Part shown: piece by piece, positions 3,128-23,239 of the stretch | How the letters are laid out: each line of letters begins with the position of its first letter | How positions within the stretch are numbered: position 1 is the stretch's first letter | Assembly: GCA_019456165.1 (NCBI GenBank) | Contig: VRUJ01000010.1 | Coordinates: 1 to 64,000, forward strand | Length of the DNA: 64,000 nucleotides | Origin: Chloroflexota bacterium | GTDB lineage: Bacteria; Chloroflexota; Anaerolineae; Anaerolineales; UBA11579 | Direction of reading: 5' to 3' | Made by a program: the position numbers and the translations under genes | Notes under the pieces: model-generated | What the model saw: only the letters and a program-made list of their open reading frames with translations | Databases searched by the model: none | Told to the model about the DNA's origin: nothing

Positions 3128-3139
3128 TTGAAAGTTGTA

Positions 3140-4384: not shown

Positions 4385-4398
4385 GGTTTGAACAAATA

Positions 4399-8173: not shown

Positions 8174-9034
8174 ATGATGGCTAGTCCTTATAACAGAGCG
8201 GTTTATGATGCTGAGCCCCAGCTACGTCGACCGCTTCTCTTCTTGAGGGGGATGTTCTCCGATATACGTTCCTCGCGAGAGCTGGCCTGGATCCTTTTGA
8301 TGCGTAATTTACGCTCACAATACCGAAAATCTATATTGGGATATGTTTGGGCTGTCTTACCCACACTAGTGACAACGCTAATTTGGGTGTTTCTCAATCA
8401 GGCCAATGTAATGAATGTGGGAGAGACGGACATACCCTACCCAGTTTATGTACTCGTAGGCACAATGCTGTGGCAAGGGTTTGTTGATGCCCTCAATAGT
8501 CCTCTAAGGCAAGTTACCGCCTCTGCTTCCATACTTACCAAGATTAACTTTCCTCGTGAAGCGCTGATTCTGGCTGGATTGGGTGAGACGTTATTTAACT
8601 TTGGCATTCGCCTGGTTCTTGTGCTTCTCCTTTTTGTAATTCTTAGAATTCCAATCCCCTCCAGTATTGTTATGGCTCCGATTGGATTTTTTGCTCTATT
8701 GGGATTTGGCACGACCATTGGTATTTTTATGATACCAATTGGTATTCTTTACTCGGATATTGAGCGAGCCATGGTTTTGCTCACTTCACTATGGTTCTTT
8801 GTCACACCGGTTGTCTATCCATCACCAACAACATGGCCAGCCTCATTATTGGCAAACCTCAACCCGGTAAGTTCATTATTGGTGACTTCTAGAGAGCTTA
8901 TGACCACAGGGAATCTGTCCCAAGTTCTAGATTTTTCTGTAGTCACAATTCTAACGGCGATTCTACTTTTCATGAGCTGGGTGGTATATAAGCTAGCAAT
9001 CCCACACATAACCTCCCGGCTGATGGCCCGATAA
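8174..9034 (+). CDS. wzm: ABC-2 type polysaccharide/glycoconjugate export permease (Wzm/TagG-like)
   Basis: A 286-residue membrane protein with six hydrophobic helices and the ABC-2 permease signature: RELAWILLMRNLRSQYRKSILGYVWAVLPTL at residues about 35-65 (amphipathic interface helix plus TM1) and FFVTPVVYPSPTTWPASLLANLNPVSSLL near the end. Its length is normal for Wzm/RfbA/TagG proteins, which form the channel of exporters for O-antigen, teichoic acid or other lipid-linked glycans. It lies three bases upstream of the matching ATPase. Two ATGs are adjacent (8174 and 8177), so the start is uncertain by one codon. The genes downstream suggest that the cargo is the lipid-linked product of this island. 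Confidence 0.9.
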   Translation: MMASPYNRAVYDAEPQLRRPLLFLRGMFSDIRSSRELAWILLMRNLRSQYRKSILGYVWAVLPTLVTTLIWVFLNQANVMNVGETDIPYPVYVLVGTMLWQGFVDALNSPLRQVTASASILTKINFPREALILAGLGETLFNFGIRLVLVLLLFVILRIPIPSSIVMAPIGFFALLGFGTTIGIFMIPIGILYSDIERAMVLLTSLWFFVTPVVYPSPTTWPASLLANLNPVSSLLVTSRELMTTGNLSQVLDFSVVTILTAILLFMSWVVYKLAIPHITSRLMAR

Positions 9035-9037
9035 ACT

Positions 9038-10288
9038 ATGACAAGAAATACTATCATAAACGTTGATAACCTTTCGAAAAAATTCTCTAAGGATTTGAAG
9101 CGTTCATTGTGGTATGGGGTGCAGGACTTTACAAGTGAACTGATCCCATGGCAGAGAGCAGGTGGGAGCAAATTGCGTCCCAAAGAATTCTGGGCGCTTA
9201 ATGGAATTTCGTTCGATTTACATTCAGGGGAAGCGTTAGGTGTAATCGGGCCAAATGGGGGAGGTAAGAGCACGTTGCTAAAATTACTTTATGGTTTGGT
9301 CAAACCAGACCAGGGCAGAATTACCATAAATGGGCGCGTAGGCGCTTTGATTGAATTGGGAGCAGGCTTCAATCCAATACTAACCGGCCGCGAAAATGTC
9401 CAGGTAAATGCCGCCTTGCTTGGCCTTACAAAGAAACAAGTCAATGCCCGCATGGACGAGATCATAGAATTCTCTGGGATCCGAGATTTTATTGACACGC
9501 CTGTGCAGTATTACAGTTCAGGCATGTGGGTAAGGCTGGGCTTTGCGATCGCAAGTCATATCAAACCTGACATCCTCTTGGTGGATGAGATACTGGCTGT
9601 GGGCGACATGGCATTTCAGCGCAAAAGCTTGCAACACATGCACCAATATCTTCACGATGGCGGCTCATTGGTAATTGTGTCCCACAATATGTTTTTGCTG
9701 CAAGCTATTTGCAACCGATGCTTGCTTCTAGACCAAGGTCAAGTAACCTACGCCGGAGCGACGGTTGATGTCGTTAACAAATATTTTGAGAGAAACCAAG
9801 ATAAGGAGAAGGACACTCCCAGGCTGCGTATGGGAAATCAACCTAACGATGATAATCCGGTCATCATTGATAAAGTGGCAATAACGCCCTCTCAGGGGGA
9901 GGAGATATATTCTGGTCAAAGTATGACCGTAATGTTGAATTACAATGCTCTCAAGGAGATTAATGACGTTTATTGGGGTTTCTCGATTTGGACTGGAGAT
10001 CAATGGGTCAGAATCGCCAGCGGCTATTCAGGCTACCCAAATGGATCACACAAAGTGACCGAGGGAAAAGGACGGCTGAGATGTACGATACCCAATCTGC
10101 CGTTGGTCGCTGGACAATATGCCCTTAGAGGAATAATTGGAGATGGCAAAACCAAAATGCCCTTGGTTTTGTTTGGATGGGAAGACGCAGCCGAATTTTT
10201 TACAGTCAAATCTGTCGCAAGCGAGCTTGATAACTTATATAGGCTTTCAGGAAATTTGGTGAATTTGGAAGTTGAATGGGATACATGA
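9038..10288 (+). CDS. wzt: ABC exporter ATPase with C-terminal cargo-binding domain (Wzt-like)
   Basis: Residues 1 to about 250 form the ATPase: Walker A GPNGGGKST at 71-79, Q-loop region ELGAGFNPILTGRENV, signature YSSGMWVRLGFAIASH, Walker B ILLVDEILAVGD, and switch His in VIVSHNM. The Walker A has Gly where most relatives have Ala (GxNGAGKS). Residues about 270-416 form a beta-rich Wzt_C-type domain (GEEIYSGQSMTVMLNYNA ... GKGRLRCTIPNLPLVAGQY). In O-antigen exporters this domain recognises the modified end of the cargo glycan, so this exporter probably reads a specific terminal decoration. The stop overlaps the next gene, indicating an operon. Confidence 0.92.
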   Translation: MTRNTIINVDNLSKKFSKDLKRSLWYGVQDFTSELIPWQRAGGSKLRPKEFWALNGISFDLHSGEALGVIGPNGGGKSTLLKLLYGLVKPDQGRITINGRVGALIELGAGFNPILTGRENVQVNAALLGLTKKQVNARMDEIIEFSGIRDFIDTPVQYYSSGMWVRLGFAIASHIKPDILLVDEILAVGDMAFQRKSLQHMHQYLHDGGSLVIVSHNMFLLQAICNRCLLLDQGQVTYAGATVDVVNKYFERNQDKEKDTPRLRMGNQPNDDNPVIIDKVAITPSQGEEIYSGQSMTVMLNYNALKEINDVYWGFSIWTGDQWVRIASGYSGYPNGSHKVTEGKGRLRCTIPNLPLVAGQYALRGIIGDGKTKMPLVLFGWEDAAEFFTVKSVASELDNLYRLSGNLVNLEVEWDT

Positions 10289-11403
10289 TGGGCATGATTA
10301 AGATGTGGTTATCTAAAGCTTCCCGGGTTGTTCGCGCGGGAAATTGGTGGTTATATAAGATTCCACCATTATTGTCTATTGCATATTTGGGTTTGCTAAA
10401 AGAGGAGGCGCCACCCGAAATTGGTCTATTGGCTATCTTGGGAGTATTAATTTCCCTCATATCGGTTGCGGCATACGGACATATCATCAACGATGTTTTT
10501 GATATCGATGAGGATCGCCGCGCGGGAAAGCCCAATATCATGGCTGATCGAAACAAATTTGAGCGTGGATTCCTGTCACTGACGTTGCTACTAACAGGAT
10601 TTACACCGTGGCTTTGGATTGATTTTGGACCAGGCGCTGCAGCGGTGCTTGCTGCCAACTATCTGCTGCCCACAATCTACTCGATTCCCCCAGTTCGGCT
10701 GAAGGAAAGAGGAGTGTGGGGAATCATTTCGGATGCTTCGGGGGCACATGCTGTCCCGACGTTATTCATTTTCATTGCGATGATTACAGTGACATCGGCT
10801 TCAATAGATGAGAGTTTCCCTCTAGTTGTGACGGCGACAAGTTGGGCATTTTTTGTCGGCCTTCGGGGAATTCTGCTGCACCAACTTTGGGATCGTGCAA
10901 ATGATATGCGCGCAGGCGCCGAGACACTCGCTGCCAGGCTTAATCCATTGGAGATTCGCCGCTTTGCAGTAGGGGTTATTTTTCCTATTGAAATGCTGGC
11001 ATTCGGCGCGGTTATCTGGGTCATTTCTCCCTTCGCCCCTTGGGCCCTATATACCGTTGTATTATATGCGATATATGATCTATTAAAATATAAATTTATC
11101 TTGAAAATCCCTTTCGATCCTCTTCCTATCTCAACCAGCGCCTATTTTCCCCCACACGGTTTGTACGTGGTGTGGATCCCAATCGTATTAACTGCCTCAT
11201 TGGCAGCCCAAGACCCTCGCTACTTGCTCGTGCTAATTCTGCAGGTCTCGTTATTTTTTAAAGATGTAAAAGCGAGGGGACGAGAGGCGACGAGCATATT
11301 GAAAAAGATTTCTAAGCAGCAAATTGGCAATCTCTTTAATTGGCAGGTATTCGGGCAGCTGGTGAAAAAATTACCGAAAGGGATTCGTGATAAAATTGCC
11401 TAA
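10276..11403 (+). CDS. UbiA-superfamily membrane prenyltransferase (or UbiA-type cyclase)
   Basis: A polytopic protein of 375 residues. The first UbiA motif is clear: N72-D73-x-x-D76-x-x-x-D80 (INDVFDIDEDRRAGKPN). The second aspartate region, after the typical YSIPPVRLKERG, reads ISDASGAHAV with only D153 where prenyltransferases usually have two Asp. UbiA proteins bind a prenyl diphosphate through Mg and transfer it, or in a few described cases cyclise it. The C-terminal 50 residues are a hydrophilic basic tail (ARGREATSILKKISKQQIGN) that also occurs as a duplicated fragment at 12873-13082. GGAAG at 10267-10271 supports ATG 10276; ATG 10285, overlapping the wzt stop, is the alternative. Substrate unknown. 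Confidence 0.8.
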   Translation: MGYMMGMIKMWLSKASRVVRAGNWWLYKIPPLLSIAYLGLLKEEAPPEIGLLAILGVLISLISVAAYGHIINDVFDIDEDRRAGKPNIMADRNKFERGFLSLTLLLTGFTPWLWIDFGPGAAAVLAANYLLPTIYSIPPVRLKERGVWGIISDASGAHAVPTLFIFIAMITVTSASIDESFPLVVTATSWAFFVGLRGILLHQLWDRANDMRAGAETLAARLNPLEIRRFAVGVIFPIEMLAFGAVIWVISPFAPWALYTVVLYAIYDLLKYKFILKIPFDPLPISTSAYFPPHGLYVVWIPIVLTASLAAQDPRYLLVLILQVSLFFKDVKARGREATSILKKISKQQIGNLFNWQVFGQLVKKLPKGIRDKIA

Positions 11404-11551
11404 GATCATTATCTGTCATCCTTTAATAAGCAAACACTTATAACCAATATTTAGATGCATGCTGCAAATCATTGTCATTCATAATTAAGTTGCTTTCACC
11501 AGCTTGGCCAGTTCAATAACAATAGATAAGAATTGCAAAAAGGAGATAAAT

Positions 11552-12763
11552 ATGGTGCAAAAGGATGAGTTCAAACTTTTTTCCAAAGAAAGGATTCGAA
11601 ATCCGTATGGCATCTATACCAAGATGCGACGTGAGGAACCTATATGCCAATACATGGACCCTCAAAATGAGACAAGTATTTGGTATCTCACACGGTTCGA
11701 CGATGTGCACGATGTATTGAAAGACGATAAACGCTTCGTAAGCGATAGGAGGAATGTTTCCACAGAAATTTCCGAAAAAAAACTAGTAAAAGATAAGTAT
11801 GAACGTGTAATACAGAATCATCTTGCAACAAAAGATCCCCCTGACCATACTCGCCTGCGAGATTTGACGAAGAAGGTATTGACGCCGGAATTGGCCGATG
11901 AGTTGGAATCATTCGTACAGGAAACATCAAATCAATTGATCGACAAAGTGGAATCCAAAGGGAAAATGGACTTAATTGAGGATTATGCTATTCCAGTTCC
12001 CCTATCAGTTATTGGAAAGCTTTTAGGTGTCCCCGCAACAGACCACAACAAGTTTCGTCGCTGGACGCAGGTGTATGTGGATCCATCTCAAAGCAGGAAG
12101 TTCAAGAAGCAAATAGGTGAATTTACCTCTTGGGCAAGGAAAAAGGTTGCAGAGCGTCAAGCCGAACCGCAGGACGATTTGATCACATATCTCATCCAAG
12201 CAAGGGAATCTGGTGAAATATTGGACGAGGACGAACTTCTCAGCATGATGTTCCTTATGCTACTGGCTGGCCATGATACCACCACTAACCTTATCGCCAA
12301 CGGCACGCTTATCTTGCTGCGCTATCCAGATTTATGGGAAAAGTTGAAGGACGATCCCACGCTGATGGATACCGCTGTGGAAGAACTTCTGCGCTTTGAA
12401 AGTCCCGTGCAGGGAGCGACCGTGCGATATGCTTCCGAAGACGTTAATATCCGTGGGCATTTGATCAAGCGAGGGGACAAGGTTCAAGTAATGATGGGGG
12501 CAGCAAATTATGACCCAGAACAGTTTCATCTGCCAGAGGAACTGGATCTAAGTCGTAAGCCGAACCGGCACATGGCGTTTGGACATGGCATCCATTTTTG
12601 CTTGGGGGCTCCCTTTGGGCGCATGGAAGGACGTGTAGCATTGAACACACTGATTCAACGGATTCCCAATCTTCGATTGGCGGTATCTGAAGAGAAATTG
12701 AAGTGGAATCCAAGTATCTATATCCGTGGCTTATCAAAACTACCCGTAGCATGGAATAAGTAG
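11552..12763 (+). CDS. Cytochrome P450, copy 1
   Basis: A soluble bacterial P450 of 403 residues with all hallmarks: I-helix LAGHDTTTN (acid-Thr pair), ExxR region EELLRFESPVQGA, and heme loop FGHGIHFCLGAPFGRMEG with the heme-ligating Cys at residue 350. The length and motifs fit three-component class I P450s such as the CYP107-like group. I chose ATG 11552 because AAGGAGA lies just upstream and the paralogue at 13230 starts at the same point. An upstream in-frame ATG exists, but its codons are not conserved in the paralogue. It follows the UbiA gene and probably oxidises the prenyl or cyclised product. No ferredoxin reductase partner lies next to it. Confidence 0.92.
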   Translation: MVQKDEFKLFSKERIRNPYGIYTKMRREEPICQYMDPQNETSIWYLTRFDDVHDVLKDDKRFVSDRRNVSTEISEKKLVKDKYERVIQNHLATKDPPDHTRLRDLTKKVLTPELADELESFVQETSNQLIDKVESKGKMDLIEDYAIPVPLSVIGKLLGVPATDHNKFRRWTQVYVDPSQSRKFKKQIGEFTSWARKKVAERQAEPQDDLITYLIQARESGEILDEDELLSMMFLMLLAGHDTTTNLIANGTLILLRYPDLWEKLKDDPTLMDTAVEELLRFESPVQGATVRYASEDVNIRGHLIKRGDKVQVMMGAANYDPEQFHLPEELDLSRKPNRHMAFGHGIHFCLGAPFGRMEGRVALNTLIQRIPNLRLAVSEEKLKWNPSIYIRGLSKLPVAWNK

Positions 12764-12838
12764 ATCTGATAGCCTTATTACTGAACTTGGAATCCTTTTG
12801 TGATTAGCTACCAAATTTTTTGGAGCGATATAAATGGC

Positions 12839-13082
12839 ATGAATACAGCAATTGATTCCGCGAATGTTAGCAGTCTCATTGGCTGCCCAAGATATTAGGT
12901 ATTTAGTCATCTTAATTCTGCAAGTCTTATTATTTTCGAAGGATGTGAAAGCGAGAGGACGAGAGGCGACGAGCATATTGAAAAAGATTGCCAAGCAGCA
13001 AATTGGCAATCTCTCTAATTGGCAGGCATTCGGGCAGCTGGTGAAAAAATTACCGAAAGGGATTCGTGATCAGATTACCTGA
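12839..13082 (+). pseudogene. Tandem-duplication scar: cyclase 5' stub joined to UbiA 3' fragment
   Basis: From 12839 the first codons read MNTAIDSANVS, matching the start of the cyclase gene at 14516 (MKTATESANFDS), and the preceding TTGGAGCGATAT matches its Shine-Dalgarno leader. At about 12872 this changes abruptly to sequence homologous to the last 70 codons of the UbiA gene (SLAAQDIRYLVILILQVLLF ... GIRDQIT, stop 13080-13082), which is in a different frame. The same UbiA 3' end then leads into P450 copy 2. The structure is what a tandem duplication of [UbiA 3' end - P450 - cyclase 5' end] leaves at its junction. Neither piece should be functional. Confidence 0.85.
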
Positions 13083-13229
13083 AATAAATATGGGCATCAC
13101 TTTTCTCCTGAATCCTTGTGCTTAGTGGTAACTGCTTGATGCATCAAGTTGCCTTGTAGGGCAATTTACCTGCTACGGTTTTCCAGGATAGATATTATCA
13201 AATAGGAATTGCATAAAGAGGAGATAAAC

Positions 13230-14441
13230 ATGATACAAAAAGAAGAGTTCAGATTTTTCTCCAAAGAAAGGGTTCGAAATCCGTATAGCATCTATGCCGA
13301 GATGCGGCGTGAGAAACCCATTTACCAGCACATAGATCCCCAAGATGGGACAAGCACCTGGTTTCTCACACGCTTTGACGATGTGCGCGCCGTAATGAAA
13401 GACGATAAACGCTTCGTAAGCGATTGGACCAATGTTAATAAAGAAATTCCAAAAGAGTTTTTGGTAAAAGAAAAACATGAGCGCGTAATCCAGAATCATC
13501 TTGTAAGAAAAGACCCACCTGACCATACTCGCTTGAGGGAATTGACGAAGAAGGCATTGACGTCGGAATTGGCCGATGAAATGGAAACATTTGTGGTGGA
13601 AACATCAAATCGGTTGCTCGATGAGGTGGAATCCAATGGAAAAATGGACTTAATTGAGGATTATGCTATTCCAGTTCCCCTGTCAGTCATTTCAAAGATT
13701 TTAGGCGTCCCATTAAAGGATCAGGGCAGGTTTCGCCGCTGGACGGAGTGGCATGTCAATCCATTAAAAGGCGAGATGGTCAAGTCAAAAATAGGTGAAT
13801 TTATCTCTTATGCAAGGGAAAAGGTTGCAGAACGGCAAGCCGAACCGCAGGATGATTTGATCACCTATCTCATCCGAGCAATGGAATCTGGTGAAATCCT
13901 GGACGAGGACGAACTTCTCAGCATGATATTCATTATGCTGCTGGCTGGCCACGAGACTACCACTAACCTTATCGCCAACGGCGCCCTTACCTTGATGCGC
14001 CATCCAGATCTTTGGAAAAAGTTGGGAGACGATCCTTCCCTGATGGAAACTGCTGTGGAAGAACTTCTGCGCTTTGAAAGTCCCGTGCAGGGGGCAACCC
14101 TACGCTTTGCTGCCGAAGACGTTAATATCCGCGGGAATTTGATTAAGCAAGGGGATAAGGTTCAGGTGATCTTAGGCGCGGCAAATTATGACTCAGAACA
14201 TTTTCCCTCCCCAGAAAAACTGGTTCTTGATCGCGACCCCAATGGTCACATTGCCTTTGGGCATGGAATCCACTTTTGTTTGGGGGCTCCATTTGGCCGT
14301 ATGGAAGGAAGAATTGCATTGAACACACTGATTCAGCGGATTCCCAATCTTCGTTTGGCTGTACCAGAAGAAAAATTAGAATGGAATCCAAGCATCAATA
14401 TTCGTGGCTTATCAAAACTACTCGTAGCGTGGGATAAGTAG
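13230..14441 (+). CDS. Cytochrome P450, copy 2
   Basis: A 403-residue paralogue of the P450 at 11552, collinear along its whole length. I-helix LAGHETTTN (His-Glu instead of His-Asp), EELLRFESPVQGA, and heme loop FGHGIHFCLGAPFGRMEG with Cys350. GAGGAGA is placed as in copy 1. Differences are spread over the protein and concentrate in substrate-facing stretches such as residues 170-190 (WTEWHVNPLKGEMVKSKIG versus WTQVYVDPSQSRKFKKQIG). After duplication the pair may therefore have taken on different oxidation steps; that is inference. It is the product of the duplication whose scar lies just upstream, and it is followed by the cyclase-like gene. Confidence 0.92.
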   Translation: MIQKEEFRFFSKERVRNPYSIYAEMRREKPIYQHIDPQDGTSTWFLTRFDDVRAVMKDDKRFVSDWTNVNKEIPKEFLVKEKHERVIQNHLVRKDPPDHTRLRELTKKALTSELADEMETFVVETSNRLLDEVESNGKMDLIEDYAIPVPLSVISKILGVPLKDQGRFRRWTEWHVNPLKGEMVKSKIGEFISYAREKVAERQAEPQDDLITYLIRAMESGEILDEDELLSMIFIMLLAGHETTTNLIANGALTLMRHPDLWKKLGDDPSLMETAVEELLRFESPVQGATLRFAAEDVNIRGNLIKQGDKVQVILGAANYDSEHFPSPEKLVLDRDPNGHIAFGHGIHFCLGAPFGRMEGRIALNTLIQRIPNLRLAVPEEKLEWNPSINIRGLSKLLVAWDK

Positions 14442-14515
14442 ATCTGATAGCTCCAATTCTAAGTATGAGTTCCTTTCGAAATTATCAGTAAATATATTGG
14501 AGAGATATCATAGGC

Positions 14516-15661
14516 ATGAAAACAGCAACAGAATCCGCGAATTTTGACAGCTACGATAAGAAGATTGCCGCGATAATTGATTATCTACATGAACAACAGA
14601 AACCGAATGGTGGGTTTAGAACATTGCAGTTTTTTAGATTCGCATATCTCCTTAAAGATTTGGGCGTACCCACTGAGTATGAAGATTGGTATGAATTAGA
14701 TTATTCCATCTGGTGTACTTCTATCTTGTTATACCATCTGCATGAAATCGACGATATAAAGATTGCAGAAATAAAGAAAAAGGGAAGTGATTACCTCGAG
14801 AAGGTGGTAGAAAATGGGGTGGTCAGGTACTTACCTGGCTATAAAATGGCTATCTGGCCAACTGACGTTGATGATACCGGTATCGTGTTTGCGGTATTGC
14901 GCCAGAATGGCTATCAAACCTATTGCAATGAAGACATGATCTTCGCAAACCACGATGGAAAGGGGAATTTATACACTTGGTTTGTGCCCCGTATTAGGCA
15001 CCTGCGCCATCTGAAAAATTTCTTCTGGCTTGCAAAGGATTATTTGGTCAACAATGTAGGATATTCCAAACAATTTGGATTTAGCGTAAAGCAAATGCTA
15101 AAAATTGCCAAAGAATATCATTCTTCAACTGAATCAGCCATCACAGCAAATGTGTTCCTTTATTTGGGAGTTGACGAACGCACTGAGATTTTCCTAAAGA
15201 CCATGATTCAGCACATCGAAAAAGACGATGCCCCTATACAATATTATCCAGACCTCTTATCGCTGTATTTCCAGGTAGCCCGATTGTATGCTACTGGGGT
15301 CAAAGAAATCGAATCTCTAAAAGATAAAATCGTCAATTATGTTGAGGGGCGGCAGGACCCGGATGGATCGGTGGGCGGGCCATTTGATACAGCCATCGCT
15401 GCCCTTACGTTAATCTACTTTCAATGTTGGAACCGCAGCTCTTTGAATAAAGCAGTGAACTATATTGCGAATCATGAGATGCATGCGCAAGGCTGGAAAC
15501 CCTTCCACGCCTGCAACGACATCGATGATACCGTCCACTTTGGAGGGCCAGAGTTGACTGCGACCATGTATCTTGAGATCCTATACAGGTATCAAAGGCA
15601 TCTTCTTGAGGGGCATACGGACTCTGCACACCAAACTGATGAGTATATAAAAGAGGCATGA
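14516..15661 (+). CDS. DxDD-containing terpene-cyclase-like protein (squalene-cyclase/prenyltransferase alpha-barrel)
   Basis: A soluble 381-residue all-alpha protein. Residues 114-132 read IWPTDVDDTGIVFAVLRQN: the DxDD motif (D117, D119, D120) followed by the FxxLRxxGY pattern typical of class II terpene cyclases such as copalyl diphosphate synthases. A second, similar motif CNDIDDTVHFGGPEL (D335-D338) lies near the C-terminus, and NGG and DPDGSVGGPF turns resemble QW-type repeats. In class II enzymes the middle Asp protonates an alkene or epoxide to start cyclisation. The protein is shorter than known bacterial class II diterpene cyclases (about 500), so it may be a single barrel with another role. 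TTGGAGAG precedes the ATG. The stop overlaps the next start (ATGA), giving tight coupling to the sulfotransferase. Confidence 0.7.
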   Translation: MKTATESANFDSYDKKIAAIIDYLHEQQKPNGGFRTLQFFRFAYLLKDLGVPTEYEDWYELDYSIWCTSILLYHLHEIDDIKIAEIKKKGSDYLEKVVENGVVRYLPGYKMAIWPTDVDDTGIVFAVLRQNGYQTYCNEDMIFANHDGKGNLYTWFVPRIRHLRHLKNFFWLAKDYLVNNVGYSKQFGFSVKQMLKIAKEYHSSTESAITANVFLYLGVDERTEIFLKTMIQHIEKDDAPIQYYPDLLSLYFQVARLYATGVKEIESLKDKIVNYVEGRQDPDGSVGGPFDTAIAALTLIYFQCWNRSSLNKAVNYIANHEMHAQGWKPFHACNDIDDTVHFGGPELTATMYLEILYRYQRHLLEGHTDSAHQTDEYIKEA

Positions 15662-16590
15662 GCAAATTCATTTTGCATATCGGTTACGCCAAGGCGGGAT
15701 CGACCTTCCTGCAAAATTGGTTTCAAATACACCCACAGCTTCAATTCACGCCAATGGGTATTGCCGGATTCAGCTCCGTAATTGATATTTCTGTGAAGGC
15801 GATCTTCGACGCGAAACCAGCCCCAAAATATTATGTAACCAGCCACGAATCTATTAGCACTGGAATGGCAATTGGTAACGATTTTGTCAATTTGGAATTT
15901 ATAGTATTGGAATCTCAGAACAAAGACAAAAAGGAAGTGAGGCGGAATCAGGCTAGAATATGTGAAACACTTCACCGCATTTTCCCCGATAGTCAGGTTA
16001 TCATCGTAACCCGAGGCTTTGAGAGCATCTTGCTATCCAGCTACTCTGAATATATCAAGCGGGGTGGAGGGCTGGATTTAGAAACATTTCTCGAGTACTA
16101 TCGCATTTTCAATGTACAATGGCTCGATATTAATCACCTAATCAACCTTTATGGCGAAGCCTTTGGAGAGGCGAACCTAATTGTGCTTCCATACGAGCTG
16201 TTACGCGATAATCAAAGCAAATTCCTAAGCTTTCTTGAACAGCGGCTGGAAATAGATCACTGCGAGGTGGACCCTGGAAATCCCAATCCTTCTCTAAATC
16301 CTGATGAACTCTTTTGGTACACTAAGATGACGAAATTTGGCATCACTCCTCTCGCGAAACTACTCGGAAAAAAGGCTGGGTATGCTTTATATAGAAAATA
16401 TATATTGCACATCGTCCTGCCGAATAGATTGCGCTCCTTCATCCGACTACCAACTCTTTTCTTGGGGGAAAGAAAAGTGAGCGATAAAATCCCCCCTGAG
16501 CATTTGGATGAATATAAGGCACGGGGAACAATTTTAGCACGGAATCCCTTTTATACTGATTACTTATCAGATTACCTTCTGGACAGTTGA
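15658..16590 (+). CDS. Sulfotransferase A, copy 1
   Basis: A 310-residue cytosolic protein starting MSKFILHIGYAKAGSTFLQ, where GYAKAGSTF (residues 9-17) is the 5'-phosphosulfate-binding loop of PAPS-dependent sulfotransferases. DSQVIIVTRGFESILLSSYS at about 115-134 carries the Arg and Ser that bind the 3'-phosphate of PAPS. The ATG overlaps the cyclase stop. The C-terminal basic helices (KKAGYALYRKYILHIVLPNR) look amphipathic and may contact the membrane. It has a close paralogue at 17128. Probable role: sulfating a hydroxyl on the product made by the upstream genes, such as one placed by a P450 or carried by a sugar. The acceptor is unknown. Confidence 0.8.
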   Translation: MSKFILHIGYAKAGSTFLQNWFQIHPQLQFTPMGIAGFSSVIDISVKAIFDAKPAPKYYVTSHESISTGMAIGNDFVNLEFIVLESQNKDKKEVRRNQARICETLHRIFPDSQVIIVTRGFESILLSSYSEYIKRGGGLDLETFLEYYRIFNVQWLDINHLINLYGEAFGEANLIVLPYELLRDNQSKFLSFLEQRLEIDHCEVDPGNPNPSLNPDELFWYTKMTKFGITPLAKLLGKKAGYALYRKYILHIVLPNRLRSFIRLPTLFLGERKVSDKIPPEHLDEYKARGTILARNPFYTDYLSDYLLDS

Positions 16591-16594
16591 ACAA

Positions 16595-17131
16595 ATGTCT
16601 AAGAGACTGATTATGGTCATGGGAGTTCAAAGATCTGGTACCACGGCGCTCTTCCAATCCCTTTCGCGCGACCTAAACTTAATATCCTTTAATGAGAGCC
16701 AAAATAGTGAGATATTCAACAATTTTCTCTTAAGCCCCGAACCCAAAATCAGGCCCACACTGATTAGTGTTGCCGATCCTGTACTTTTGAAGCCGATCAG
16801 TGAAACCAAAAAACGAACGGTTACAGATCTCTTTAAAGAGTTCAAGGATTATGATCTTCAGATCGTTTGGATTTACCGGGACCCCGCAAATGTATTTTAT
16901 TTTATGACTCAGATGGGATGCCAGCGGCCAAACAGAGTCACTGCAAAATTCTTTGCCCACGATTGGAACCGTAGAAATCGATTTCTCCTTGAGGGCCTAT
17001 CAGAATATCCATTTGGAATAATGGTTGTAAGATATGAGGATCTTGAGGTCCTATACAGGTATCAAAGGCATATTCTCGAGGAGCATACGGACTCTGCACA
17101 CCAAACTGATGAGTTAATAAAAGAGGCATGA
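16595..17131 (+). pseudogene. Chimeric sulfotransferase B copy 1, fused to the cyclase C-terminus
   Basis: Residues 1 to about 150 are sulfotransferase B: PAPS 5' loop GVQRSGTTALFQ (residues 10-21) and 3'-phosphate region LQIVWIYRDPANVFYFMTQM. At about 17041-17047 the frame changes from VVRYEDL into EVLYRYQRHILEEHTDSAHQ, which is the C-terminal tail of the DxDD cyclase (LEILYRYQRHLLEGHTDSAHQ). It ends with the same ATGA overlap to the next gene. Compared with copy 2, about 350 residues are missing. This is the junction of a tandem duplication. The core PAPS-binding half is intact, so a short folded protein is possible, but full activity is unlikely. Confidence 0.85.
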
Positions 17132-18054
17132 GCAAATTCATTTTACATATAGGTTACGCTAAGGCGGGATCGACCTTCCTGCAAAATTGGTTTCAAATGC
17201 ACCCACAGCTTCAATTCACGCCAATGGGTATTGCCGGCTTCCGCTCCGTAATTGATATTTCTGAGAAGGCGATCTTCGACACGAAACCTGCCCCAAAGTA
17301 TTATGTAACCAGCCACGAACTAATTGGCGCTGGATTAGCAATTGGTAGAGATGTTGCCAGGGTGGAATTTAAAGCAGAGGAATTTCAGGACGAAAAGGAA
17401 GTGATTCGAAACCAGTCCAAAATATGTGAAGCGCTTCGCAGTCTTTTCCCAGATAGTCAGGTTATCATCGTAACCCGAGGATATGAGAGCATCTTGTTAT
17501 CCGGATATTCTGAATATATAAAGGGGGGTGGTGAGCTGGATTCAAAAACAAGATTCGAGGTCAATCATAATTTCAATCTTCAATGGCTCGATATTAATCA
17601 GCTCATTAACCTTTATAGTAAAGCCTTTGGAGAGACGAACCTAATTGTGCTCCCATACGAGATCTTACGCGATAATAAAAGTAAATTCCTAAGAATTCTT
17701 GAACAGCGGCTGGGAATAGATCATTATGAGTTGAACCCTGGAAATCCCAATCCCTCTCTAAATACGCATGAACTCTTTTGGTACGCTAGGATAACGAAAT
17801 TTGGCATCACTCCTCTTGCGAATCTACTCGGAAAAAAGACTGGACATGCTTTATATAGGAAATACGCATTGCACATCGTCCGGCCGAATAGATTGCGCCC
17901 TATCATCCGGCTAATAGCTCAACGGTTTCCAGAAAAAAAAGAGAGCGATAAAGTCCCTCCTGAGCATTTAAACGAATATAAGGAAGTGGGGACAATTTTA
18001 GCGCAAAATCCCCTTTATACTGATTACTTATCAGATTACCTGTTGGACGATTGA
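17128..18054 (+). CDS. Sulfotransferase A, copy 2
   Basis: A 308-residue paralogue of the gene at 15658: MSKFILHIGYAKAGSTFLQN with the same 5' PAPS loop, DSQVIIVTRGYESILLSGYS for the 3' site, and the same ending YTDYLSDYLLD. The first 45 codons are almost unchanged between copies, while the middle (residues 60-90 and 135-150) has diverged, with a two-residue length change. It begins inside the duplicated cyclase tail and keeps the same overlapping start. The copies may sulfate different positions or be redundant. A convergent substitution pattern cannot be judged by eye. Confidence 0.8.
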   Translation: MSKFILHIGYAKAGSTFLQNWFQMHPQLQFTPMGIAGFRSVIDISEKAIFDTKPAPKYYVTSHELIGAGLAIGRDVARVEFKAEEFQDEKEVIRNQSKICEALRSLFPDSQVIIVTRGYESILLSGYSEYIKGGGELDSKTRFEVNHNFNLQWLDINQLINLYSKAFGETNLIVLPYEILRDNKSKFLRILEQRLGIDHYELNPGNPNPSLNTHELFWYARITKFGITPLANLLGKKTGHALYRKYALHIVRPNRLRPIIRLIAQRFPEKKESDKVPPEHLNEYKEVGTILAQNPLYTDYLSDYLLDD

Positions 18055-18058
18055 ACAC

Positions 18059-19582
18059 ATGCGTATGAGACTGATTATGGTCATGGGCGTTCAAAGATCG
18101 GGTACGACAGCGCTTTTCCAATCCTTTTCCCGTGATTTGAGCTTGGTGTCTTTTAATGAGAGTAAAGCGAGTGAGGTATTCAACAATTTTATGTTAAGGC
18201 CTGAACCCAAAATCAGGCCCACGCTGCTAAGTGCTCCCGGACAAGTGCTTTTGAAGCCGATCAGTGAAACTAAAAAACGAACGGTAACAGATCTCTTTGA
18301 AGAATTCACGGATTATGATCTTCAGATCGTATGGACTTACCGGGACCCCGTAAATGTATTTTATTCTATGACTCAGATGGGGTGGCGGCGGCAAAACAGA
18401 GTCAGTTCAAAATTTTTTTCCCGAGATTGGAACCGTCGGAATCGATTTCTCCTTGAGGCCATATCAGAATACCGCTCTGGATTAATGCTTGTAAGATATG
18501 AGGACCTTGCAGCCAATCCGGCGGTATTTGATCAATTGTGTTTAGCCCTTAATATTAAGGGGAAATATTTATATCGCCCCGATTCCTCGGTCGCTCGGAA
18601 AGAATTGTCAGGAAATCTAATCGCCCAAATTGATAGGGATACCAACGATATTCTTTCTGAGCTATATCGACAACGAAGTTACAAACCCGCGGAATTTGAA
18701 CATCAACCTGTAAATTTTAAGTCTATTTCTCCAAAGGAAATTACATCTAAGCAGGAAGAAAAGCAAACCATAGCCGCGAAGGAAATCTTGCCATCCAAAA
18801 TAAACAATCTGTATCTTTGGTTAAAACCAGAAGACCTATCAGACCACCCCGAGGGTGAAGCAATATCGGATTGGAAAGATGCTGGACCAAATAATTTTAG
18901 CATCGTCCAAGGTAATTCGAATCCTCAGTATACGAAAAACAGTGCAAATAACCTACCCTCATTGCATTTTATGAATATTCCCGCGGACAATTCATCAAAG
19001 TATATTGAATTCGGTACCTCCGATGATTGGAGATTCCTGTACGATGGCGGTGAATTTACGGTTTTCGTGGTATTTAAGCCTTCCAGTCTCACTGAATATG
19101 ATTGGAATCAACACTTATGGACGACAATACTAACCACAATGAATGTTCAAGGAAGGGGTCCTGGGTTACAGATCTTATGGGCAAAAGAATATCTTTCCAG
19201 TGTCGTAATGTTGGTGCCGCAACTGAAAACAAAGATGAGCGCAATCTCTCAATCTGTGGTTTCGGCAATTTGTCCGGTGAACTTGCACCCGCTCGGAGAA
19301 TGGCATATATTAGTTTGCAATCACAAACAAACTGTAGACCATAAGAATTTGACTGTTTACGTAGACAACCAACTAGCTGAAATCGGGTCGCAAAATCCCA
19401 ATTATAAGTATGCGAAGAATAGTCAAATAGACGGCGGTTTGATTTTAGGAGCAAATCTATCGCAACCCGAAACGCCATTTAATGGGCAGATGGCAGAAGT
19501 TATTGTATTTAGTGAAGCGCTGAACAATGAATTTCGGCTAGGGGTGACCCGCTATTTGAAAAAGAAATATGATATCCAGTAG
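18059..19582 (+). CDS. Sulfotransferase B with C-terminal LamG/concanavalin-like domain
   Basis: Residues 1 to about 215 are a PAPS-dependent sulfotransferase: MGVQRSGTTALFQSFSRD (P-loop-like 5' site) and LQIVWTYRDPVNVFYSMTQ (3' site). After a charged linker (KQEEKQTIAAKEILPSK), residues about 248-507 form a beta-sandwich of the LamG/ConA-like type: NNLYLWLKPEDLSDHPEGEA, WKDAGPNN, and the closing FNGQMAEVIVFSEALN ... VTRYLKKKYDIQ. Such domains are usually extracellular carbohydrate-binding modules, yet there is no signal peptide here. The domain may hold a glycan acceptor near the active site. It is the only full-length type-B sulfotransferase left after the duplication. Its end overlaps the next gene by 14 bases. 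Confidence 0.82.
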   Translation: MRMRLIMVMGVQRSGTTALFQSFSRDLSLVSFNESKASEVFNNFMLRPEPKIRPTLLSAPGQVLLKPISETKKRTVTDLFEEFTDYDLQIVWTYRDPVNVFYSMTQMGWRRQNRVSSKFFSRDWNRRNRFLLEAISEYRSGLMLVRYEDLAANPAVFDQLCLALNIKGKYLYRPDSSVARKELSGNLIAQIDRDTNDILSELYRQRSYKPAEFEHQPVNFKSISPKEITSKQEEKQTIAAKEILPSKINNLYLWLKPEDLSDHPEGEAISDWKDAGPNNFSIVQGNSNPQYTKNSANNLPSLHFMNIPADNSSKYIEFGTSDDWRFLYDGGEFTVFVVFKPSSLTEYDWNQHLWTTILTTMNVQGRGPGLQILWAKEYLSSVVMLVPQLKTKMSAISQSVVSAICPVNLHPLGEWHILVCNHKQTVDHKNLTVYVDNQLAEIGSQNPNYKYAKNSQIDGGLILGANLSQPETPFNGQMAEVIVFSEALNNEFRLGVTRYLKKKYDIQ

Positions 19583-20915
19583 CCGATTTCCCGAGATCAA
19601 AGATCTTCCCGTGATAGTTGCCTCCACCTATTGGACGGTCAACGGTGTTAATATTTTTTCCACGAATTTGGTGCACGGTTTGCAAGAGCGCGGGTTTGAT
19701 GCCCATATCCTTCTAACAATGCAGGGATCAAAAATGTTCTCTCCCCCACACACAGATTCCGCTTTACCTATGCCTGAGAACATCCAGGTAAATAATCTGC
19801 CTGTAAATGCCTATGCCAGTTGGCCGATGCACTGGGCGGCTATGAGCCGCTACCTTGAGGAACATAAACCTTGCATCTATATCCCCAACCATGATTGGTG
19901 GCACTCTTGCGTTAGCCCCAAAGCGCCAGAGGAAGTCATTATTGTCGGGACTCTCCATAACAATGACCAACACCAGCACAATTATGTTTCTGCTCTAGGT
20001 AAATACTGGAACGCTGTTGTGGCTGTTAGCGGAGAAATCGCAAAGCAGGTGGTGGCGCATAACCCTGGACTTGAAGATAGAGTCGTTACCATCCCAAATG
20101 GCGTGATGATTCCTTCCAACCTCCCTCTAAGAGCGAGAAAAGAGAACGCACCGTTGCGGATCGTCTACGCAGGCAGGCTCGTACAACATCAGAAGCGCAT
20201 TCACGACCTTCCCAAAATTGTTTCCGCCCTCGTTGAGCGAGGGGTGCCGCTGGAACTCACAATTATCGGTGGCGATCCCCCTCAATTGCTGCTGGACGAG
20301 TCGAGTGAATACACCAAGCAAAAAAAGGTGAGGTTCACAGGGGCATTGCCGAATAGTGAAGTTATTGAGATATTCTCCAAAAGTGATGCCTTCATACTCA
20401 CTTCTGAATTTGAAGGCCTCCCGCTAAGTTTGTTGGAGGCGATGGGTCAGGGATGTGTTCCGGTAGTGACCGACATCCCCAGCGGAATTCCAGAAGTAGT
20501 TATTGATGGAGAAAATGGCTTCTTAATACCGGTTGGGGATATTGATACATTCGCAAGTCGCTTATCTCGATTGCAAAATGACCCCTCTTTCCGACGCGAG
20601 ATGTCAAAGAAAGCTTATCAAAAAGTTCATGCTGGGAAATACGGAATTGAAAACATGGTTGAGAATTATATTAATCTTTTTCACCGTGTTGCTAATGATT
20701 CAAGCGATGGTGTCTACATTCGTTCAAATGGAAGGATAGCCCCCCCTAAATCTTTGGGAGGGAAACGACCGCTAAAACGGAGGGTTTTTGCCATTGAGGT
20801 ATTGTTAGCGGAACTCTCTTATTCGTGGATGAGTCCTATAATTGCGGTCATCCTTGAAATGCTTCAATTAATTAGGTATAAGAGAAAATGGATTCGTTCT
20901 CGCCCTACAGCCTAG
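19569..20915 (+). CDS. GT4-family glycosyltransferase, copy 1
   Basis: A GT-B fold retaining glycosyltransferase of 448 residues. The N-terminal domain begins IVASTYWTVNGVNIFSTNLV. The donor domain carries LRIVYAGRLVQHQKRIHDLP and the EX7E region SEFEGLPLSLLEAMGQGCVP, VVTDIPSGIPEVV, the signature of GT4 enzymes that use nucleotide sugars. The C-terminus adds about 60 residues with a basic, partly hydrophobic helix (IIAVILEMLQLIRYKRKWIR) that may touch the membrane. The ATG at 19569 overlaps the sulfotransferase stop. A diverged paralogue follows after four bases. Likely role: adding sugar residues in the same pathway. Confidence 0.85.
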   Translation: MISSSRFPEIKDLPVIVASTYWTVNGVNIFSTNLVHGLQERGFDAHILLTMQGSKMFSPPHTDSALPMPENIQVNNLPVNAYASWPMHWAAMSRYLEEHKPCIYIPNHDWWHSCVSPKAPEEVIIVGTLHNNDQHQHNYVSALGKYWNAVVAVSGEIAKQVVAHNPGLEDRVVTIPNGVMIPSNLPLRARKENAPLRIVYAGRLVQHQKRIHDLPKIVSALVERGVPLELTIIGGDPPQLLLDESSEYTKQKKVRFTGALPNSEVIEIFSKSDAFILTSEFEGLPLSLLEAMGQGCVPVVTDIPSGIPEVVIDGENGFLIPVGDIDTFASRLSRLQNDPSFRREMSKKAYQKVHAGKYGIENMVENYINLFHRVANDSSDGVYIRSNGRIAPPKSLGGKRPLKRRVFAIEVLLAELSYSWMSPIIAVILEMLQLIRYKRKWIRSRPTA

Positions 20916-20919
20916 CCTT

Positions 20920-22155
20920 ATGACCAAAGACAACAAAAATTCGCGAAATCGGGTAATTATTGCATCCACTAATGGCAGGCTCAGTGGGGTGGATATATTT
21001 TCAGTCAATTTAGTGCGCGGCCTCTTGAGGTTGGGGATTCCTGCACACGTCCTCCTCACAAAACATTACCAAGTTCCTCGAGACCCCCTGCGATTTCCAT
21101 CTGATATTCCGGTAAGAAAGTTACCGGTAAATCAGGAAAATAGTTGGCCTGCTCGTTGGCAAACACTGATTGGCTACTTGGAAGAACACGCGCCGTGTAT
21201 CTATATCCCCAACTATGATTGGGATCATTCCTGTGTTAGTCCCGCACTTTCTGAAAGGGTTGGAATTGTTGGGGTCGTGCACAGCGATGATCCCAAACAC
21301 TATGATCATGTATCTCGGCTAGGGCGTTACTGGAATGCAATTGTAGCAGTTAGCGACGCGATTGCCCACCGTATCAATCAGCTGGATACTGATCTTCCAG
21401 GGCGGTTGGTCACCATTCCGAATGGAGTCGAGATCCCTCCAAAAATGATCCGCCGAGATTCAAATGACGTTGACCCCCTGCGTGTCATTTATGCCGGCCG
21501 CCTGGTCCAATATCAGAAACGCATTTTCGATCTTGTAAAAATTGTCAAACTCTCAGCAAACGAAGGGATCCCGATCGAACTTACCGTCATTGGCGGTGGA
21601 TCAGCCCAGAAAAAGTTTCGAACCGCGCTTTCGGCCTATATTGACCAGAAATCCGTGAAATTATTAGGTATACTTCCCAATCAAAAAGTTCTTGACAAAT
21701 TTGCTGAGAGTGAAGTATTCATAATGACATCGGACTTTGAAGGTCTTCCGATGGGATTGCTGGAAGCGATGGGACGTGGGTGTGTCCCAGTTGTAACCGA
21801 TATCCGCAGTGGCATCCCAGAATTAGTACAAGATGGCGTGAACGGCTACCGAGTATCTGTAGGTGACATTGAAGCGTTCGTAGACCGGCTTGATAAACTT
21901 CAGCGAAATCAGAATCTGAGAGAGGACCTTGGGCTGAAAGCGTACCAAACAATTCGTGACGGAGGCTATCGAGTTGAAGATATGGCCCAGAAGTACTCTA
22001 CACTGTTCGAAAACGTTTGGAAAAACATTGACGATGGCTCTTACCGACGTCCACACGGAATTATCACAACGCCCCCATCTCTGGCCTGGAGAGCTCACAT
22101 GCCTACCGCCGTGCGAAGAATATACCGGGTTGCCAAGCGCCTTTTGTATTCCTAA
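20920..22155 (+). CDS. GT4-family glycosyltransferase, copy 2
   Basis: A 411-residue paralogue of the preceding gene, with VIIASTNGRLSGVDIFSVNL at the N-terminus, LRVIYAGRLVQYQKRIFDLV, and the donor-site block SDFEGLPMGLLEAMGRGCVP followed by VVTDIRSGIPELV. The two copies share the same block order and the peculiar ACIYIPNYDWDHSCVSP / PCIYIPNHDWWHSCVSP segment, so they arose from one gene, though they are clearly diverged. A basic C-terminal helix is shared. It is probably co-transcribed with the genes upstream. Donor and acceptor are unknown. Confidence 0.85.
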   Translation: MTKDNKNSRNRVIIASTNGRLSGVDIFSVNLVRGLLRLGIPAHVLLTKHYQVPRDPLRFPSDIPVRKLPVNQENSWPARWQTLIGYLEEHAPCIYIPNYDWDHSCVSPALSERVGIVGVVHSDDPKHYDHVSRLGRYWNAIVAVSDAIAHRINQLDTDLPGRLVTIPNGVEIPPKMIRRDSNDVDPLRVIYAGRLVQYQKRIFDLVKIVKLSANEGIPIELTVIGGGSAQKKFRTALSAYIDQKSVKLLGILPNQKVLDKFAESEVFIMTSDFEGLPMGLLEAMGRGCVPVVTDIRSGIPELVQDGVNGYRVSVGDIEAFVDRLDKLQRNQNLREDLGLKAYQTIRDGGYRVEDMAQKYSTLFENVWKNIDDGSYRRPHGIITTPPSLAWRAHMPTAVRRIYRVAKRLLYS

Positions 22156-22261
22156 GGCACATTGACAATGCAACATAAACTTTTCTCAGGCTCAAAACAA
22201 GAACCTGTATAATGTCTGACACCTGGTATACAGCAAATACCATGAACAACTTAATCCCAAT

Positions 22262-23239
22262 ATGAAAATATTCCTGACTGGCGGCGCCGGATACATTGGG
22301 TCTGTCACCGCGGATGGATTGCTTCGTGCCGGCCATGAGGTCACAATTTATGACTCGTTGATTACGGGACATCGCGCCGCTGTGCCAAATGGGGTGAACT
22401 TTGTCCACGCCGAATTAAGCGACCGAGCAACTTTGGCCGAGGCATTAATGGATCAAGGATTTGATGCAGTTCTACATATGGCCGCTTCTACCGATGTGGG
22501 CGCGAGCATGCACGTTCCCGGAGATTACTTTCAGAATAATGTGATAAATTCTCTTTCGTTAATAGAGCGTGCACACCAAGCTGGTATCGGGCGATTTGTT
22601 TTTTCCTCTACTTACTCTATCTATCACAGCTCGAAGGATCCCCTCCAGGAAGATTCCGTCAAAGATCCCAAAAGCGTCTACAGCCAGGGAAAACTTATGG
22701 TTGAACAAGCCCTAAACTGGTACCATTCTATATTTGGTTTGGGGGTCGCCATTCTTCGCTATTCCAATGCTGCCGGATCTACGGAACACCGTGGCGAAGA
22801 CCATACGCCGGAACCGCATATGATCCCACGCATCCTCCAAGTGGCCATGAACAAGCGGGCCAAATTCGTGATAAATGGTAACGACCACCCCACCCAAGAT
22901 GGCACGCCTATTCGAGATTTCGTTCATATTGAGGATCTAGCCTTAGCCAATAAGCTTGCCCTGGAAAACCTGGAAAAGGAAAGCAGGATGGTCTATAACG
23001 TTGGTAATGGCATTGGTACTTCTATTCAGGAAGTTATTACAGCAGCCCGTAACATTTCTGGACACCCTATTCCGGTAGTTTTCCGGGCGCGGCGTCCTGG
23101 TGATCCTAGCATCCTGGTTGCATCATCTCAGCGTATTCGCCAGTCGCTTGGCTGGAAACCCAAATTTGATAACCTGGAGCAAATCGTCGCCAGCGCTTGG
23201 AATTGGCTAGTGGCTAACCCCGAGGGGTATTCTAATTAA
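22262..23239 (+). CDS. galE: UDP-glucose 4-epimerase (GalE-like extended SDR)
   Basis: An NAD-dependent extended short-chain dehydrogenase of 325 residues. GGAGYIGS at 7-14 binds NAD, Ser116 in VFSSTYSIY and the Tyr140-x-x-x-Lys144 pair (VYSQGKLMVEQ) form the catalytic set, and NAAGSTEHRGEDHTPEPHMI is the GalE substrate-loop signature. It would interconvert UDP-Glc/UDP-Gal or the N-acetyl forms and so supply sugar donor for the neighbouring GT4 enzymes. The 106-base spacer before it contains a TATAAT at about 22211 but no well-placed -35 box. Length is normal for the family. Confidence 0.9.
   Translation: MKIFLTGGAGYIGSVTADGLLRAGHEVTIYDSLITGHRAAVPNGVNFVHAELSDRATLAEALMDQGFDAVLHMAASTDVGASMHVPGDYFQNNVINSLSLIERAHQAGIGRFVFSSTYSIYHSSKDPLQEDSVKDPKSVYSQGKLMVEQALNWYHSIFGLGVAILRYSNAAGSTEHRGEDHTPEPHMIPRILQVAMNKRAKFVINGNDHPTQDGTPIRDFVHIEDLALANKLALENLEKESRMVYNVGNGIGTSIQEVITAARNISGHPIPVVFRARRPGDPSILVASSQRIRQSLGWKPKFDNLEQIVASAWNWLVANPEGYSN

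Follow-up and report, generated by a model that had tools for sequence, protein, structure and literature searches.

A run of 13 genes, all on the forward strand and spanning about 15 kb (8174–23239), was found in the analyzed window, a 64,000-nucleotide stretch of a Chloroflexota genome. The genes named in an earlier, sequence-only reading of this DNA were all recovered at the positions assigned to them and on the same strand. Its description of tight junctions with looser spacers around the cytochrome P450 genes was borne out by the measured gaps: 3 bp (wzm/wzt), 100 bp (UbiA/P450 a), 445 bp (P450 a/P450 b), 74 bp (P450 b/cyclase), 4 bp (STA1/STB1, STA2/STB2, and GTa/GTb), and 106 bp (GTb/epimerase), with overlaps of 13 bp (wzt/UbiA), 4 bp (cyclase/STA1 and STB1/STA2), and 14 bp (STB2/GTa). 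Intrinsic terminators and promoters had fewer matches within the run than in shuffled sequence. GT87 genes, an ASST-like gene, and a third GT4 gene were located just outside the run.

Exporter, tailoring, and sugar genes

The run began with a gene encoding a divergent Wzm-type ABC exporter permease (8174–9034), which matched the NCBIfam profiles of galactan Wzm (E 1.7e-8) and KpsM (9e-6) and no Pfam family up to E 10. It demonstrated 35–49% identity with the Wzm of other cyclase clusters (L032, L075, L030, L037, L065, L048, and L043). The adjacent Wzt ATPase (9038–10288; ABC_tran 2.5e-23, Wzt_C 1e-5, the latter below the cut-off) consisted of a nucleotide-binding part (residues 1–250) and a carbohydrate-binding cargo domain (about 256–416). 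The best Foldseek match of the AF2 model of the cargo domain (pLDDT 87) was the Aquifex Wzt carbohydrate-binding domain (8dku/8dky), with 5hno and 2r5o also found; the ATPase and C-terminal carbohydrate-binding domain expected of the Wzt of an O-antigen-type exporter were thus both present. Full-length Wzt was 40–50% identical to the Wzt of related clusters. Cargo-domain similarity did not cleanly follow the presence of the sulfotransferase, and this idea was dropped.

A UbiA-superfamily membrane prenyltransferase (or UbiA-type cyclase) was encoded at 10276–11403 (UbiA, 7.4e-14, above the Pfam cut-off), followed by cytochromes P450 a (11504–12763; p450, 1.2e-34) and P450 b (13209–14441; p450, 3.2e-33). 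The start of P450 a, as listed, was TTG; the true start may be downstream. The two P450 proteins were 75% identical, and self-comparison matched 11188–12868 to 12867–14545 with 79.7% DNA identity over 1690 positions. The 445-bp spacer between them (12764–13208) derives from the UbiA 3′ end and the leader, which were copied in the tandem duplication and have since decayed.

Downstream of the terpene cyclase gene (14516–15661), four sulfotransferase reading frames of two tandemly duplicated types were located, the region 15570–17045 matching 17040–18509 at 85%. Type A was represented by STA1 (15658–16590; Sulfotransfer_3, 1.1e-4, below the cut-off) and STA2 (17128–18054; 75% identical to STA1). 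STA residues H7, G9, K12, G14, and S15 and the pair R119/S127, invariant in 13 sequences, correspond to the 5′ phosphosulfate loop and the 3′ R...S motif of PAPS sulfotransferases; the STA alignment profile matched sulfotransferase 3rnl in the PDB (6.4e-5). STB1 (16595–17131) was a remnant, in which the first 150 amino acids of type B were joined to the last 29 amino acids of a cyclase copy. STB2 (18059–19582; Sulfotransfer_3, 3.8e-8; Sulfotransfer_1, 3.5e-5) carried a C-terminal LamG-type domain (Laminin_G_3, 3.1e-7) and had no homologue in the related loci. The additional P450, the additional sulfotransferases, and the odd P450 spacer stem from two local tandem duplications. The two P450s and the two sulfotransferase types of the sequence-only reading were all present; two of the P450 and sulfotransferase genes are duplication products and not separate steps.

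Two GT4 glycosyltransferases, GTa (19569–20915; Glycos_transf_1, 2.7e-33) and GTb (20920–22155; 49% to GTa), and a GalE-like NAD-dependent sugar-nucleotide epimerase (22262–23239; Epimerase, 1.6e-50) completed the run. GTa was 41% identical to a double-length GT4 of cluster L030, and epimerase homologues of 37–39% were found in clusters L034 and L048. Three polyprenyl synthases and APS kinase were encoded in the source genome.

Cyclase and UbiA protein

The DxDD protein consisted of 381 amino acids in one domain. It had no Pfam match above the cut-off and was below the NCBIfam cut-off as well. The profile of the cyclase alignment matched AsDMS (3.5e-22), SHC (5.7e-11), AstC (8.6e-10), and MstE (1e-4) in the PDB. 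The AF2 model (pLDDT 88, pTM 0.89) was predicted to have the beta-domain alpha/alpha-barrel fold of SHC/CPS type, with Foldseek matches to AsDMS (1.2e-9), MstE (3.3e-8), SHC, SsDMS, and ent-CPS spanning E values from 1e-9 to 1e-4.

The general-acid motif DxDD/DxDT was present as DVDD (D117xD119D120); D117 and D119, equivalent to AsDMS D331 and D333, were invariant in 48 of 48 relatives. The Asn and Tyr that position the general acid (N324/Y361 in AstC and Y427 in AsDMS; PMC12365925 for the AsDMS roles) were represented by N212 (AsDMS N388; 45/48) and Y244 (AsDMS Y427; 42/48), and the position of the cation-stabilizing AsDMS F281 was aromatic in 47 of the 48. The AsDMS pyrophosphate site was not retained: its binding residues Y373, R378, and Y426 (PMC12365925) corresponded to W155, H202, and Y243 in the window cyclase; across the 48 relatives, Y373 was always replaced by Trp or Phe, and R380 was replaced by Asp in 40. 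The N-terminal HAD phosphatase domain of the HAD-fused drimane synthases was also absent from the protein. A second DIDD near residue 335 was considered as a diphosphate site and rejected, being not conserved in the nearest relative, from L030. Fold and active site verify the protein as a monodomain class II terpene cyclase, whose cyclization activity is inferred. An unrelated known role of this protein would have refuted the proposal of a single pathway; no such role was found.

The UbiA motifs N72D73xxD76xxxD80 and D206xxxD210, which define the superfamily, were invariant across 51 relatives. The UbiA profile matched chlorophyll synthase (4.6e-9) and DGGGP synthase (3.6e-7), and DPPR synthase (8j8j) at only 0.009; an arabinogalactan-type reading of UbiA with Wzm/Wzt was rejected on these scores.

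Occurrence in other phyla

Single-sequence searches with the cyclase gave no match in the PDB or genome contigs, none in 150 sampled relatives, and three weak matches in 400 genomes of the phylum; the first lead to relatives was a Nostoc fusion found by tblastn of plasmids. With the UbiA subfamily as the query, 79 usable loci were gathered. The cyclase was present in 39 of them (40 including the L031 fusion), together with wzm and/or wzt in 17, and it occurred in 10 of the 11 loci carrying the STA subfamily. Loci of about nine other phyla combine these families as well, and the linkage is therefore more than coincidental. Locus L075 (wzm-P450-P450-wzt-cyclase-STA-polyprenyl synthase, beside UbiA and glycosyltransferases) is a near-complete equivalent, as are L037, L033, L043, L048, L065, L030, and L016/L093; a short operon, ABC-GT4-GT2-cyclase-UbiA, was found in Bacteroidota. 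Polyprenyl synthase lies within clusters L015, L034, L075, and L085. Fusions joined PhyH, UbiA, and cyclase (cyanobacteria), UbiA and cyclase (L095), cyclase and P450 (L031), PhyH and cyclase (L034), and UbiA and GT4 (L032).

Pairwise distances were correlated between UbiA and cyclase (0.77) and between STA and cyclase (0.88), although shared species history is not accounted for by the shuffles. Two points weigh against the proposed pathway: the window cyclase was only 17–38% identical to the other members of the cyclase alignment, and it branched with the L030 cyclase, separately from the main clade of UbiA-linked cyclases, with its deeper placement unresolved. Some Bacteroidota members lacked the third Asp of DxDD. 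Other cyclase-like proteins examined in Chloroflexota had different gene contexts.

Separation of wzm/wzt from the UbiA-P450-cyclase-sulfotransferase block in relatives would have spoken against one pathway; the block was found linked instead. The suggestion that this combination was undescribed in Chloroflexota-like bacteria holds in that no description was found, while the core is no speciality of this phylum: the cyclase was absent from the 150 sampled relatives, and the contexts of the other cyclase-like proteins examined there differ. Our literature search, which left out most subscription journals, retrieved no paper on a prenyltransferase, a terpene cyclase, and Wzt together, nor on the combination in Bacteroidota or Acidobacteria.

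Proposed pathway and comparison with known systems

Co-localization across phyla, four kinds of fusion, correlated divergence, and the verified fold and active site of the cyclase back the inference that the genes act in one pathway. We estimate at about 60% the probability that the product of the cluster is an exported isoprenoid, ring-closed, sulfated, and glycosylated, that is made by a prenylation-first route; product, substrate, and expression data are lacking. At the membrane, UbiA would transfer a farnesyl or geranylgeranyl chain, supplied by a housekeeping polyprenyl synthase, to a small acceptor, which remains unnamed because the cluster has no acceptor-making gene. D119 of the cyclase would then protonate the chain end, with D117, held by N212 and Y244, as partner or base, and the chain would fold up into rings resembling those of drimanes or labdanes. 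The P450s may hydroxylate the rings, and the ring hydroxyls would be sulfated by the PAPS sulfotransferases and glycosylated by the two GT4 enzymes with sugar supplied through the epimerase. Finally, the carbohydrate-binding domain of Wzt would read the sugar cap, and the amphipathic product would be moved across the membrane. The analysis shows the gene families, the folds of the cargo domain and the cyclase, the active site of the latter, the conserved linkage, and the fusions. Which substrate is used, in what order the steps run, and that the product is sulfated and leaves through Wzm/Wzt are inferences. The product is probably a meroterpenoid cyclized after prenyl transfer. This order is favored because the pyrophosphate clamp of AsDMS is lost while the catalytic residues are kept.

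The reverse order is possible but unlikely: the cyclase would convert free FPP or GGPP to a drimenyl- or copalyl-type diphosphate, and UbiA would follow, either as a class I terpene cyclase of the UbiA type, like PtmT1 of platensimycin, or in transferring the ring system, before P450 action, sulfation, glycosylation, and export. The closest solved relatives (AsDMS, AstC, and ent-CPS) use free diphosphates, and the fusion of UbiA to the cyclase is reminiscent of drimenol synthases, in which a HAD partner fused to the cyclase handles the diphosphate end; such an order needs no acceptor-making gene and suits the Bacteroidota operon. Against it stand the non-conserved pyrophosphate residues and the proximity of the UbiA profile to acceptor-using enzymes, in a comparison that contained no UbiA-type cyclase structure.

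It appears improbable that a sulfated surface polysaccharide is what the exporter and glycosyltransferases produce, with UbiA, cyclase, and P450s either an unrelated terpenoid set lying between them by chance or the source of no more than a lipid anchor or terminal cap. The O-antigen type of the exporter and the genes flanking the run agree with it, and in mycobacteria DPPR synthase, a UbiA enzyme, shares the arabinogalactan region with Wzm/Wzt. Yet in unrelated phyla, UbiA and cyclase recur beside glycosyltransferases and an ABC exporter, either Wzm/Wzt or another, UbiA is fused to GT4 in L032, the UbiA profile is not DPPR-synthase-like, and none of the genes in the block was identified as a polymerase type. 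A point against the prenylation-first reading is that the Wzt domain could serve an unrelated glycan, although Wzt is conserved over its full length along with the cluster. We give very little credence to a non-catalytic alpha/alpha-toroid in a cluster making a linear prenylated glycolipid; the missing Pfam match, the loss of the third Asp in some Bacteroidota, and the unconserved second DIDD would fit it, whereas the two Asp on which AsDMS and AstC depend never vary, the Asn, Tyr, and aromatic residues that support them are present as well, and these two enzymes are themselves of the DxDT type.

Tentatively, and at slightly less than even odds, we propose that cyclic-terpenoid glycoconjugates, often sulfated and either secreted or displayed on the surface, form a widespread class of bacterial molecules that has not been described, with a UbiA and cyclase core and Wzm/Wzt or MsbA-type export, in about ten phyla. 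If so, they are neither ordinary hopanoids nor ordinary O-antigens, and the compact core marks out a family of terpenoid glycosides destined for export, which gene-family scans miss because the cyclase is below the Pfam and NCBIfam cut-offs. The cluster joins class II terpene cyclization and polysaccharide-type export, fields usually studied apart, and through the cyclase, new ring systems on unusual head groups may be reached. Owing to the fusions, the logic of the pathway can be tested in the cultured strains Pedobacter cryoconitis, Chitinophaga ginsengisoli, Nostoc sp. C052, Sphingomonas sp. QA11, and Novosphingobium sp. RL4, the last two of which carry UbiA, cyclase, STA, and Wzm/Wzt.

Among known systems, platensimycin-type diterpenoid pathways likewise bring together a DxDD cyclase, P450s, and an enzyme of the UbiA fold; we know of none with a sulfotransferase/GT4/Wzm-Wzt set. 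The window UbiA shares both Asp-rich motifs and a YSxPPxRLK-type motif with chlorophyll and DGGGP synthases but forms a distinct subfamily with GLRGILxHQxxDxxND. AsDMS and AstC, HAD-fused beta-domain drimane synthases (PMC9128629, PMC12365925, PMC13244436), are the nearest solved structures by profile and fold; the window cyclase has the same catalytic residues (two Asp, one Asn, and one Tyr) and agrees with them at the main aromatic positions but has UbiA as its partner in place of the HAD domain, does not keep the pyrophosphate residues, and belongs to clusters that include glycosyltransferases and an ABC exporter. MstE, the monodomain class II merosterolic acid synthase of Scytonema (6SBB–6SBG), acts on a prenylated aromatic acid (PDB titles; PMC12365925); the window cyclase is likewise a single beta domain of similar length, with 11–12% identity. 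The window Wzt shares its C-terminal fold and ATPase class with the O-antigen exporter of Aquifex aeolicus (8dku, 7k2t), whereas its permease is too divergent for Pfam and is tied to terpenoid genes, not to a glycan-polymer locus.

Cluster organization and tandem duplications

The segment 8174–23239 contained 13 genes, all rightward: wzm, wzt, ubiA, two P450 genes, the gene of a DxDD protein (14516–15661, +), four sulfotransferase ORFs, two GT4 genes, and a GalE-like epimerase gene. The sequence-only reading had described a tightly spaced run with loose spacers at the P450 genes; gene calls and junction lengths bore this out, since the junctions from wzm to the second GT4 gene measured −14 to +4 bases, except for 100, 445, and 74 bases around the P450 genes.

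Part of the gene count is accounted for by two tandem duplications inferred from DNA self-matches. In the first (11188–12868 against 12867–14545; 80%, 1690 bp), the ubiA tail and one P450 gene were copied; thus, the P450s form a paralogous pair (75%) separated by a decayed ubiA tail, which makes up the long 445-base spacer. In the second (15570–17045 against 17040–18509; 85%, 1476 bp), the cyclase tail, the PAPS-type sulfotransferase A gene, and the start of the second-type sulfotransferase B gene were copied. The 178-aa ORF at 16595 was a broken type-B sulfotransferase ending in 29 residues of the cyclase C-terminus.

Just upstream of wzm and divergent from it, an ASST arylsulfotransferase (PF05935) was encoded (5686–6957, −); it might act outside the cytoplasm, with sulfate esters as its substrates or its products. 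Other neighbors were two successive GT87 mannosyltransferase-like genes (3128–5592, +), a fusion of a methyltransferase with a membrane domain of the LPG-synthase type (1196–2791, −), and, about 6 kb downstream, two neighboring LytR-CpsA-Psr proteins of the glycopolymer ligase family (29756–32271, +).

Identity of the DxDD protein

The DxDD protein had no assignment in Pfam or NCBIfam, and neither the PDB nor 150 relatives yielded a match in single-sequence searches. A tblastn search of plasmids retrieved one relative (28% identity), which forms the C-terminal portion of a protein from Nostoc sp. C052 and is preceded there by a UbiA domain. Searching plasmids with UbiA added loci in Oscillatoria, Methylomagnum, and Novosphingobium; the locus of Novosphingobium sp. 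RL4 combined UbiA, Wzm, and Wzt with a DVDDT protein and a sulfotransferase.

The profile of a 38-sequence alignment, including most homologues from the UbiA-subfamily loci described below, matched in the PDB AsDMS drimenol synthase (3.5e-22), squalene-hopene cyclase (5.7e-11), AstC (8.6e-10), and MstE (1e-4). Foldseek with the AlphaFold2 model (pLDDT 88) matched AsDMS, MstE, single-domain squalene-hopene cyclases, and diterpene cyclases. With residue roles taken from PMC12365925 and PMC13244436, the AsDMS catalytic positions D331 and D333 were kept in 48/48 relatives, N388 in 45/48, and Y427 in 42/48; the F281 position was aromatic in 47/48. We concluded from alignment and model that the DxDD protein functions as a class II cyclase of the beta-domain type, its cyclization activity itself being inferred.

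Distribution of related loci

When the UbiA alignment was used to scan 84,980 species genomes, 80 loci were obtained, 79 of which were counted. The cyclase was present in 39 (40 with the L031 fusion), a GT4-profile match in 65 (this profile also catches GT2 enzymes), an MsbA-like ABC exporter in 35, wzt in 26, and wzm in 21; 17 combined the cyclase with wzm and/or wzt. Ten of 11 sulfotransferase A subfamily loci held the cyclase. Pairwise distances correlated at 0.77 for UbiA/cyclase and 0.88 for sulfotransferase/cyclase, values never equalled in 2000 label shufflings, a control that leaves shared species history in.

In Acidobacteria (L075), a near-equivalent comprised wzm, two P450 genes, wzt, cyclase, sulfotransferase A, and polyprenyl synthase, with UbiA and two GTs alongside. 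Further near-equivalents occurred in Gemmatimonadota (L033), Brevundimonas (L043, L048), Sphingomonas (L065), Melioribacteraceae (L030), Novosphingobium (L016/L093), and at locus L037. Fusions were PhyH-UbiA-cyclase-TPR (cyanobacteria), UbiA-cyclase (L095), cyclase-P450 (L031), PhyH-cyclase (L034), and UbiA-GT4 (L032). In the cyclase tree, the window protein paired with that of L030 (support 1.0) outside the main UbiA-linked clade, deeper placement being unresolved.

Set against its frequency at these UbiA-subfamily loci, the cyclase family was rare in the window's phylum, matching below 1e-5 in only 8/400 genomes, the window's own included. None of the strong cyclase-like relatives examined there (L123–L128) adjoined this UbiA/Wzm/Wzt set, so the window cluster is isolated in its phylum, which fits patchy inheritance. 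One of them (L124:9412–10761, −) carried an N-terminal NHLP RiPP leader domain (TIGR03793; residues 23–90, E 5.8e-11, under the curated cut-off) and adjoined NHLM-type peptide-export ABC transporters (11000–16152, −); apparently, it is a terpene-cyclase fold dressed as a RiPP precursor. Another (L123:4199–10537, −) had a LanM lanthipeptide synthetase and a precursor gene with an NHLP leader in its vicinity.

Bacteroidota UbiA/cyclase operons (L036:736–2182; likewise L040, L042, L069, L084) had FdtA- and DegT-aminotransferase-like genes upstream, suggesting a product bearing an aminodeoxysugar. Actinomycetota contigs (L050, L053, L054, L056, L074, L076, L081, L087) combined the UbiA subfamily with asparagine-synthase-like and radical SAM genes, several adding wzm/wzt and PhyH, mostly with no cyclase in reach; perhaps this is a sister pathway.

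Proposed pathway and known systems

With families, folds, active sites, and linkage observed, and substrate, step order, product sulfation, and cargo inferred, the most likely course is the following: UbiA would prenylate a small acceptor, the cyclase would then close rings by protonation, the P450s would hydroxylate, the sulfotransferases and GT4 enzymes would decorate the product, and Wzm/Wzt would export the sugar-capped amphiphile. Polyprenyl synthases and PAPS capacity were encoded in the genome. Wzt was 40–50% identical along its whole length to that of related clusters, and Foldseek matched the fold of its modeled C-terminal domain to carbohydrate-binding domains known from Wzt proteins; the inferred cargo should therefore carry sugar.

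The main rival to this course is the reverse order, with the cyclase acting first and UbiA second. Both Asp-rich motifs of UbiA were invariant in 51 relatives. In the cyclase family, the pyrophosphate-binding residues of AsDMS were not conserved (Trp/Phe for Y373 in 48/48, Asp for R380 in 40/48), and we infer that the head group of the substrate is unlikely to be a pyrophosphate bound in the AsDMS manner. An arabinogalactan analogy for UbiA with Wzm/Wzt was disfavored, because the UbiA profile was closest to chlorophyll synthase and DGGGP synthase and distant from DPPR synthase. The gene combination was not found in the literature searched, with most subscription journals, MIBiG, and antiSMASH outside its scope. 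Every enzyme kind in the cluster is already known; given the limited scope of that search, there is a fair chance that the product represents an undescribed class.
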